DNA from: an uncultured Clostridia bacterium
GTDB lineage: Bacteria > Bacillota > Clostridia > Christensenellales > UBA3700
Assembly: GCA_945992255.1 (NCBI GenBank)
Contig: CAMFVQ010000035.1
Location: forward strand, 1 to 44,853
Direction of reading: 5' to 3'
Length of the DNA: 44,853 nt
Position 1 is the stretch's first letter. The number at the start of each line of letters is the position of its first letter. The notes under the pieces are model-generated. The model worked only from the letters and a program-made list of their open reading frames with translations. It ran no database searches and was not told the origin of the DNA. A program made the translations under genes and the position numbers. Positions 1-10,420 of this stretch are shown piece after piece.

Positions 1-46
1 GCCGTTCATAAGGATATTGCTGTCGCAAATGAGGGATTGTAAAAAA
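1..46. repeat. Dispersed repeat, partial copy at window edge
   Basis: The first bases contain a core (AAGGATATTGCTGTCGCAAA) that recurs, slightly changed, near 9488 and 25348. The left part of this copy is cut by the window edge. It matches the right end of the longer repeat at 9417-9517. Confidence 0.6.
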
Positions 47-8059: not shown

Positions 8060-8194
8060 TTAGACAGTTAGGCTCTTTCTGCCCTTGTTGCGACGTCTTC
8101 TAAGAACATTTCTGCCGCTCTTAGAACGCATTCTCTCTCTAAATCCGTGTACCTTGCTGCGTTGTCTTTTTTTTGGTTGATAAGTTTGTTTCAT
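8060..8194 (-). CDS. rpmH: 50S ribosomal protein L34
   Basis: 44 aa, the exact usual size of L34, with the basic family sequence [20 protein letters not shown]. Start at 8194 has GAGAGGA upstream. An in-frame extension to 8287 is only promoter region. It is the first gene of the rpmH-rnpA-yidD-yidC-jag operon. In many Bacillota dnaA and oriC lie just upstream; here they are not seen. Confidence 0.97.
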
Positions 8195-8272: not shown

Positions 8273-8429
8273 GCAAATTGTATCCAAAATAATGATAGCC
8301 AGCTGTGGAAAGCAAAAGGAGCGAAGCCAAAGTGCAAAATGAGATTGCGAAAATCAATATAAAAGTCATACAAAAAGAAAAATATCAAGAGTGCTGAATA
8401 GTGGGAACGCAAAAAATGATTGGTTGGAA

Positions 8430-8499
8430 TAAAAAGAGTCAGGAACTAATTAAAACCCCCGGGGTACAATTCCCCGACAACCTTAATAGCCTGACTATA
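8430..8499 (-). ncRNA. Orphan hairpin RNA, about 70 nt
   Basis: A complete small transcription unit with no reading frame. A perfect promoter on the minus strand precedes a sequence whose ends pair: AGTCAGG (8496-8490) with CCTGACT (8443-8437), extended inward by CTATTAA against TTAATTAG. The inner part forms CGGGG/CCCCG around AATTGTA, with purine/U-rich internal loops. CTTTTTATT follows the closing stem, so the transcript should end near 8430. It resembles no riboswitch or sRNA family I know. A similar unit lies at 44587-44664. rpmH follows about 235 nt downstream but has its own promoter. Confidence 0.6.
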
Positions 8500-8505
8500 T
8501 ATATA

Positions 8506-8534
8506 ATTATACGCAAAGTAAAGGCGTTTGTCAA
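8506..8534 (-). promoter_or_regulatory. Promoter of the orphan hairpin RNA
   Basis: On the minus strand TTGACA (8534-8529), a 17-bp spacer and TATAAT (8511-8506): a perfect consensus promoter. The predicted start is about 8499, just before the closing stem of the RNA. Confidence 0.85.
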
Positions 8535-8654
8535 CATTTTTGAAGAAAAACCCGAAAATAAGCAAGATAAACAAAGAAATTGGGTGTGGAAAAGGTATAG
8601 ATAGAAAGAAAAGAAATATAATTTTTGCTTTTGTGTTGATTGTAAAATAGCAAG

Positions 8655-8683
8655 TTGACACGACTTAGTAAATCGGTTATAAT
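8655..8683 (+). promoter_or_regulatory. Promoter of the 66-aa protein gene
   Basis: TTGACA (8655-8660), 17-bp spacer, TATAAT (8678-8683), a perfect consensus match, followed by a short leader with AGGAGGT. Confidence 0.85.
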
Positions 8684-8706
8684 AAAACCAACAGGAGGTA
8701 TTGATT

Positions 8707-8907
8707 ATGACAGAAAATAAGAAAGTAGAATTGAGTGAAGACTCTCTCAAGGAAATAGCAAAAGCAATCGCACTTGCTGATATGGCAGCACAAGCCCCTA
8801 AAGAAAAAAATCCTCGTATTCCAATGGTGGAAGATGAACTCTACCATAAAGCAATGAAAGAGGGAATCGAAAAATACAATGCCATGAAAGAAGAGGGAAA
8901 AATTTGA
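8707..8907 (+). CDS. Small charged protein of unknown function
   Basis: 66 aa, not recognised. The sequence is hydrophilic, rich in Lys, Glu and Ala, with predicted helical stretches (SLKEIAKAIALADMAAQA and ELYHKAMKEGIEKYNAMKEE) and no membrane segment or Cys. Expression signals are unusually good: a perfect sigma-A promoter, AGGAGGT 8 nt before ATG 8707 and a terminator about 60 nt after the stop. It stands alone between the orphan RNA and a repeat-bearing stretch. A small structural or regulatory protein is possible, but nothing in the sequence fixes the role. Confidence 0.7.
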   Translation: MTENKKVELSEDSLKEIAKAIALADMAAQAPKEKNPRIPMVEDELYHKAMKEGIEKYNAMKEEGKI

Positions 8908-9550: not shown

Positions 9551-10420
9551 ATGGACAAGATAACAAGAATATTACAACTCAATAGCGTGACGAGTGGAAG
9601 TGTGGAGCAGAACTTGCGACAGCTGGGCATTTCTTCATCTGTTTGCACAAGTTTGCGTAAGGAGTTGGGGCTTGTTTATGTGGTAGAAAATGGAGATAAA
9701 AAGCCACTGCGTTTGGTGGATTTTCTCGATACATGTCGCACGTTTTACATAATTCTCAAAGATTGGGACATAGAGCCAATTCCTCGCTATGATTACCCAC
9801 TGGACATTGTGTATGAAGATGAAGACGTGGCGGTCATAGACAAGCCAAGCGGTATGGCGGTTATACCTACGCACAACCATTATGGCAAGTGTTTGGTCAA
9901 TGCACTAGCCAATCTTTGGGGTGATTTTGTCTATCGCCCTGTCAATCGATTGGACAGGGATACAAGCGGACTGATGATTGTAGCCAAAAATCAACTGGCG
10001 CACAGCATTTTGTCGACTGCCGACATTGTCAAAAAGTACCACGCATTGTGCATGGGAGTGCTGAGCGGACAAGGGGTGTGGGAATATCCTATTGCGGACA
10101 GCGCCGATGAGTCGATGAAAAGATATGTGGCACCGCACGGCAAATCCGCTCTTACCAAGTACAAAGTGCTGACCAACTTTGAACAATACACTTTGGTAGA
10201 ATGCGAGCTTGTCACAGGTCGCACTCACCAAATAAGAGTTCACTCCGCTCATATCGGACACCCACTTGTTGCCGACAAGCTCTATGGCGACGGCAAGGCT
10301 ATGCTCGCTCCCAATGGCAAGCTGGTCACCACTCAAGCCTTGCACAGCTGTCATCTAGAATTTTGTTCGCCAATCACTCAGCAAAGGGTTGTGCTGGATA
10401 GCAAAGCCCCTTGGGAATAA
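9551..10420 (+). CDS. RluA-family 23S/tRNA pseudouridine synthase
   Basis: 289 aa. The family converts specific uridines in rRNA or tRNA to pseudouridine. The catalytic signature RPVNRLDRDTSGLMIVAK (about residues 131-147) holds the invariant Asp, and TGRTHQIRVHSAHIGHPLVAD and the closing HLEF motif are present. The His often found before RLD is Asn, a known variant. The N-terminal 80 residues are shorter and less S4-like than in RluD. AAAGGAG precedes ATG 9551. It is a single gene. The target nucleotide cannot be told from sequence alone. Confidence 0.9.
   Translation: MDKITRILQLNSVTSGSVEQNLRQLGISSSVCTSLRKELGLVYVVENGDKKPLRLVDFLDTCRTFYIILKDWDIEPIPRYDYPLDIVYEDEDVAVIDKPSGMAVIPTHNHYGKCLVNALANLWGDFVYRPVNRLDRDTSGLMIVAKNQLAHSILSTADIVKKYHALCMGVLSGQGVWEYPIADSADESMKRYVAPHGKSALTKYKVLTNFEQYTLVECELVTGRTHQIRVHSAHIGHPLVADKLYGDGKAMLAPNGKLVTTQALHSCHLEFCSPITQQRVVLDSKAPWE

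Follow-up and report, generated by a model that had tools for sequence, protein, structure and literature searches.

What is the short minus-strand unit, led by a perfect promoter, that lies upstream of rpmH in the genome of an uncultured Clostridia bacterium, and what might it do? The window (the whole 44,853-nt stretch of contig CAMFVQ010000035.1 that was analyzed) comes from a 1.48-Mb draft genome. An earlier note on this DNA had proposed a stand-alone minus-strand hairpin RNA gene with a TTGACA-17-TATAAT promoter, and direct reading confirmed its bases and coordinates (Table 1). The pairing that it described, of AGTCAGG and CCTGACT ends before a U-run with CGGGG/CCCCG inside, was borne out by sequence and fold.

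The hairpin unit and its surroundings

Table 1. Features of the unit and its neighborhood in the window
Feature	Position	Strand	Basis or remark
-35 box TTGACA	8534-8529	minus	exact consensus; kept in relatives
-10 box TATAAT, spacer 17 nt	8511-8506	minus	exact consensus; kept in relatives
Predicted RNA, ~66-70 nt, start region to end of U-run	8431-8500	minus	inferred from promoter, hairpin, and U-run
Long hairpin, 60 nt (outer stem AGTCAGG/CCTGACT, middle stem, CGGGG/CCCCG)	8496-8437	minus	fold and covariation
Outer stem arms AGTCAGG and CCTGACT	8496-8490 and 8443-8437	minus	read from sequence
Apical loop AAUUGUA, 7 nt, closed by CGGGG/CCCCG	8471-8465	minus	family form AAUYGNA; positions invariant or near-invariant
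U-run UCUUUUU, intrinsic terminator tail	8437-8431	minus	read from sequence; kept in relatives
MuF_C domain tail relic (..WNKKSQELIKTPGVQFPDNLNSLTIYIIIRKVKAFVN), 40 aa	8410-8535	plus	tblastn E 5e-13, 69% identity to tail of MuF_C protein of genome G002
rpmH	8060-8194	minus	neighbor with its own promoter (8272-8244); outside the element

The hairpin by itself folds to a minimum free energy of -24.7 kcal/mol (z = -2.4; 3 of 200 shuffles were equally good). None of 60 dinucleotide-shuffled versions of the window contained a promoter-hairpin-U-run unit of equal quality (0 promoter mismatches, hairpin <= -24 kcal/mol). Perfect TTGACA-N16..18-TATAAT promoters number four in the window (0.03 expected), and the other three, that of rpmH included, resemble ordinary gene promoters. 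On the plus strand, at 8655-8907, a perfect TTGACA-17-TATAAT is followed by a ribosome-binding site and a 68-aa open reading frame (ORF) without a confident family.

Searched against Rfam, the window gave no match at the gathering score, in keeping with the note's remark that the RNA is unlike known families. The best sub-threshold match, to the Listeria small RNA rli48 (RF01479), reached 26.4 bits against a cut-off of 100, and permissive thresholds gave nothing more; this weak alignment shares a GGGGA..UU..ACCCC hairpin core and a U-rich stretch but misses about 60 consensus positions. At 13 related loci the unit was likewise without an Rfam match, the sole match there being a plasmid RNAI elsewhere in locus L302 (positions 6-109; RF00106, 59.6 bits), an Aeromonas plasmid that also bears a MuF_C gene and a hairpin unit. 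Judged by these sequence searches and shuffles, the window holds a genuine RNA gene that is missing from Rfam.

The statement that no ORF fits did not hold: a plus-strand ORF (8401-8604, 67 aa) overlaps the unit, though it represents the MuF_C tail relic and is not a likely gene. A PF18819 profile run over the window's genome found no MuF_C domain. Because only a tail-peptide relic remains on the plus strand and the genome has no PF18819 domain, we class the window unit as a solitary copy; the position antisense to a MuF_C domain tail, usual but not universal among its relatives, was not found here.

The unit does lie upstream of rpmH, as had been noted, but the position is incidental. Among 30 rnpA/rpmH loci scanned, one other (genome G034) carries a unit, of another subtype and in the opposite orientation. 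A same-genus genome, G001, has no unit at rpmH, and the window contains neither a DnaA-box cluster nor parS; on these grounds a link of the unit to rpmH or oriC was rejected. In G001, a long intergenic region upstream of rpmH (locus L288, 3100-3700) holds several parS-like GTTTCACG(A/T)GAAAC sites.

Homologues and their place in MuF_C genes

True homologues were found with blastn in three other genomes of the same family, and tblastn of the opposite strand added further ones. Aligned with one another, all have promoter, loop, and U-run in common; the stems differ yet still pair. A first covariance model, built from 8 sequences, found strong representatives in 8 of the family's 46 genomes, and order-wide it matched 18 of 297 genomes (E <= 0.01, some weak); a second model added just one genome among 348 of the phylum. 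Covariance models R1 and R2 match the window at 8428-8534.

The compensatory changes in relatives that the earlier note had named as a check are present. When 22 relatives were aligned by sequence only, both sides had changed in 20 of the 22 pairs of the tested structure, a structure derived from one of the aligned sequences. The covariation score was 0.503; slid controls did not exceed 0.22, and none of 500 shuffles scored as high, a count that is not a probability because the sequences are related; the slid controls address relatedness. Solitary copies alone (n = 11) gave 18 of 22 covarying pairs and a score of 0.521.

Members are defined by a TTGAC(A/T)-16..18-TATAAT-like promoter directly before the hairpin (8534-8506 in the window unit) and by a single long hairpin with a covarying stem and an AAUYGNA loop, followed by a U-run; the window unit has each of these. 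The apical core GGGCAATTGnAGCCC is recognizable from Clostridia to Escherichia coli phages. The exact core was not found in viral contigs, and a loose promoter-plus-loop scan of such contigs proved unspecific. Matches from a pattern search with the core alone were mostly coding (rho and others) and hence not relatives. Mimicry of a tRNA anticodon loop, considered because the loop has 7 nt, was rejected because the register does not fit.

The unit's usual place is antisense to the 3' end of a MuF_C (PF18819) coding sequence inside large polyvalent proteins. In this embedded setting, homology has one limit at the RNA promoter, from which it extends over hundreds of bases of MuF_C coding sequence. 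A protein profile alone picked out seven MuF_C genes in the order and phylum, and in all seven the domain end carries a promoter-hairpin-U-run unit in antisense; the RNA model misses two of these units. An ORF with three tandem MuF_C modules carries three units. Wider loci were taken from IMG/VR contigs, E. coli Sepvirinae-type/Stx-type phages, Pasteurella phage Pmp11, an Acinetobacter plasmid, a 3.6-kb Aeromonas plasmid, and an Opitutaceae (Verrucomicrobia) plasmid. At the domain end, all 13 had an antisense hairpin followed by a T-run, with energies of <= -24 kcal/mol; 4.3% of 690 background windows from the same loci reached this energy. Several of the 13 are close relatives, and they therefore count as about nine independent lineages. 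Most have a clear promoter, but those of the Opitutaceae plasmid and the E. coli phages match the consensus poorly. The 3' end of the phage Mu F gene has no such hairpin, and the MuF-C of phage Mu has been called inactive (PMC5512222); every MuF_C gene examined outside phage Mu carries the unit.

Partner proteins match PF18819 above its cut-off (E 6e-21 to 2e-25). MuF-C has been described as a PBECR RNase domain (BECR/PBECR RNase-like) of proteins delivered with DNA, and as a hub domain of phage and conjugative-element polyvalent proteins (PMC5512222). The PBECR His and Ser (per PMC5512222) are kept in 10 of 10 aligned MuF_C modules. A first structure model of MuF_C was set aside (pLDDT 49). 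A usable one (pLDDT 71) gave weak matches to the HigB, RelE, and CdiA RNase toxins among unrelated rows (Z 2.6-3.3) and no significant Foldseek match, and the MuF_C profile found nothing credible among PDB sequences. The MuF_C domains studied here are predicted RNase modules. We regard the RNA family and its link to MuF_C as well supported and very probably correct; by the sequences compared, the family spans elements of Clostridia, Gammaproteobacteria, and Verrucomicrobiota and is absent from Rfam.

Might promoter and hairpin merely fall out of the MuF_C tail peptide (GLQLP...NTIIRKAKAFVN)? That peptide is conserved in many MuF_C proteins, but a by-product of coding is already contradicted and very improbable. 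Across embedded genes, Val at the -35 is written GTC and the -10 is spelled ATT ATA CGC; GTC and CGC are fixed at these sites even though most of the genes use them as minor codons. E. coli phages encode GLQLP as GGG CTC/CTT CAA TTG CCC, and in PhiR5_2 CAA accounts for 3 of 51 Gln codons and CCC for 2 of 56 Pro codons. Where the peptide changes, the RNA features persist: pairs are retained in G079 (GLQLP to ELQSL), the stem in the E. coli phages despite a changed surrounding peptide, and the promoter in G001 and L235, in G001 in another frame. In Aeromonas the hairpin persists beyond the end of the ORF, and solitary copies show stops and frame changes in the opposite-strand reading. On this evidence, the constraint lies on the nucleotides of the RNA and not on the protein.

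Another reading is a sense-strand signal, by which a hairpin after an A-rich slippery stretch in MuF_C mRNAs would cause frameshifting or pausing. In the mRNA the hairpin is indeed preceded by an A-run, the complement of the antisense U-run, but A-run and stem have no spacer between them and solitary copies keep the antisense promoter without a gene, which leaves this reading scarcely credible.

In locus L231 (JAFVRR010000011.1, 3977-6249), five promoter-hairpin units with different hairpins lie within 2.3 kb, all on the minus strand; the cluster adjoins an ADP-ribosylglycohydrolase gene and short ORFs with repeated linkers (ILNTEEKVNN).

Solitary copies

Solitary units, for which homology is limited to the unit itself, lie between core genes in about ten Clostridia genomes, a minority. 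Their sites include HD-domain/trypsin-like protease genes, SpoU methylase/SIS-domain genes, rplQ/class II tRNA synthetase genes, and places near dnaX and upstream of rpmH.

A solitary unit in G034 is 99-100% identical to a MuF_C-embedded unit in G260, a genome of another family, and their flanks are unrelated. G034 has a second, different unit, which is the one upstream of its rpmH. Two of its contigs (G034:C8:35163-35253 and G034:C25:1-67) both end inside the first of these units, with an exact 55-nt overlap, as would be expected if the unit is multicopy or strain-variable; the two contigs may join.

Near identity of this kind, over about 114 bp between unrelated flanks in G034 and G260, could mean that the hairpin unit acts at the level of DNA, as a recombination or mobilization site for domain shuffling, and that solitary copies have hopped. 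MuF_C homology between genes also ends at the unit, and units are clustered in L231. Such an element, however, would leave the kept sigma-70 promoter, the U-run, and the one fixed orientation to MuF_C unaccounted for; the stems covary, G-U pairs included, and no terminal repeats or target duplications were seen. We consider it quite unlikely.

In E. coli, 102 of 5,426 genomes have a solitary copy, outside any MuF_C gene, that is akin to the PhiR5_2 hairpin (L305, L306, and L307, ~1500-1570). It adjoins genes for PerC, ProQ/FinO, and SSB (single-stranded DNA-binding protein), has a TATAAT box, and lies in frames broken by stops; we rank it as a weaker member because the strict hairpin-plus-U-run scan did not score it. 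The ProQ-family neighbor might handle this RNA. We also considered, from its map position between lom and vb_24B_43, whether the microRNA-size phage RNA 24B_1 might be the same RNA (PMC4426718, PMC10732415).

Placement between core genes, with good promoters, and the E. coli copy beside PerC and ProQ/FinO genes in those 102 genomes would suit a host regulatory RNA, domesticated for a function unrelated to MuF_C. Presence is patchy, however, as the few strong matches within the family indicate, and the neighbors differ each time; this origin of the solitary copies seems improbable.

In genome G025, three tandem hairpins that share a GTYGTCGGG..CCCGGG core, with one promoter upstream, occupy one intergenic region between leuA-like and phoU-like genes (L041/L255, ~9880-10025, minus strand).

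A candidate RNA inhibitor of MuF_C effectors

The RNA is a constant partner of a predicted RNase, and detached copies of it lie in core chromosomes; for these reasons the best explanation is, in our view, a cognate RNA inhibitor (an antitoxin or immunity RNA) of the MuF_C effector, with solitary copies as orphan immunity, a reading to which we give an even chance. Its usual place at the end of a predicted RNA-cutting domain suggests that the RNA controls or neutralizes an effector delivered by the element. That it inhibits the MuF_C effector is plausible, if somewhat short of an even chance. The RNA would be made in the donor and would restrain the RNase module, either through decoy or inhibitor binding, as RNA antitoxins do, or through base pairing with the module's mRNA. 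A cell with the RNA alone, as in the window, would gain protection from incoming elements that deliver the effector or express it. Adjacency of two of the roughly ten solitary sites to rpmH was counted against this explanation, as were the poor promoters of the E. coli phages and the Opitutaceae plasmid and the small share of genomes with a solitary copy. More tentatively, a cross-phylum effector-immunity system may exist, in which phages and conjugative elements deliver a MuF_C RNase, the antisense-nested RNA protects the carrier, and detached copies at core sites are inherited immunity.

The main rival is control of mRNA: the RNA would pair with the mRNA of its own polyvalent protein and limit synthesis, and solitary copies would act in trans, base-pairing with incoming MuF_C mRNAs to silence them, with no binding of the protein. 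The unit is antisense by position, and the embedded RNA could act on its mRNA instead. Single-hairpin antisense RNAs exist; RNA-OUT of IS10, for one, is a ~70-nt RNA that forms one long imperfect hairpin and is made from a strong promoter. Our RNA resembles it in each of these respects, although no transposase is present here, and the loop and stem are conserved across phyla with MuF_C. The window unit also shares ~81% identity with the unit of G260 and is therefore to a large extent complementary to the MuF_C mRNA of that genome. Yet in solitary copies the stem has changed in sequence but fold and loop have not, which makes them less complementary to distant targets; the AAUYGNA loop persists from phylum to phylum, more like protein recognition; and in long ORFs the start codon is a great distance upstream of the unit. 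From the covarying stems and fixed loop we infer that protein recognition is favored over full-length pairing, and we consider the antisense reading unlikely, though a serious one.

A cognate RNA inhibitor would resemble several known systems in part. Like type III toxin-antitoxin systems (ToxIN, CptIN, TenpIN), it would join a small structured RNA to an RNase-type effector on phages and plasmids, the inhibition being presumed here. The type III arrangement of a tandem-repeat antitoxin RNA upstream of the toxin gene was not found, however: there is one hairpin here instead of tandem repeats, the RNA is antisense within or just past the effector domain instead of upstream in the same direction, and the effector, of predicted BECR fold, is part of a large polyvalent protein. 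With type I antisense RNAs it shares a strong promoter of its own and an overlap with a gene in mobile elements. Those RNAs are antisense to the mRNA of a small hydrophobic toxin, a small membrane peptide, whereas the partner here is the RNase-like MuF_C domain of large proteins, and the conserved loop, covarying stems, and gene-less solitary copies further set the present RNA apart.

If the antisense RNA gene inside MuF_C is a real partner, it would provide the partner that this hub domain has lacked, allow a ready test of MuF_C as a toxin, and illustrate how RNA-only immunity genes might be kept by bacteria. Its location in coding sequence is why the RNA gene was overlooked. Orphan immunity genes of polymorphic toxins offer a further likeness (an effector module, a linked partner, and detached partner copies elsewhere), but here the partner is no protein; it is an RNA gene that lies antisense within the effector domain.
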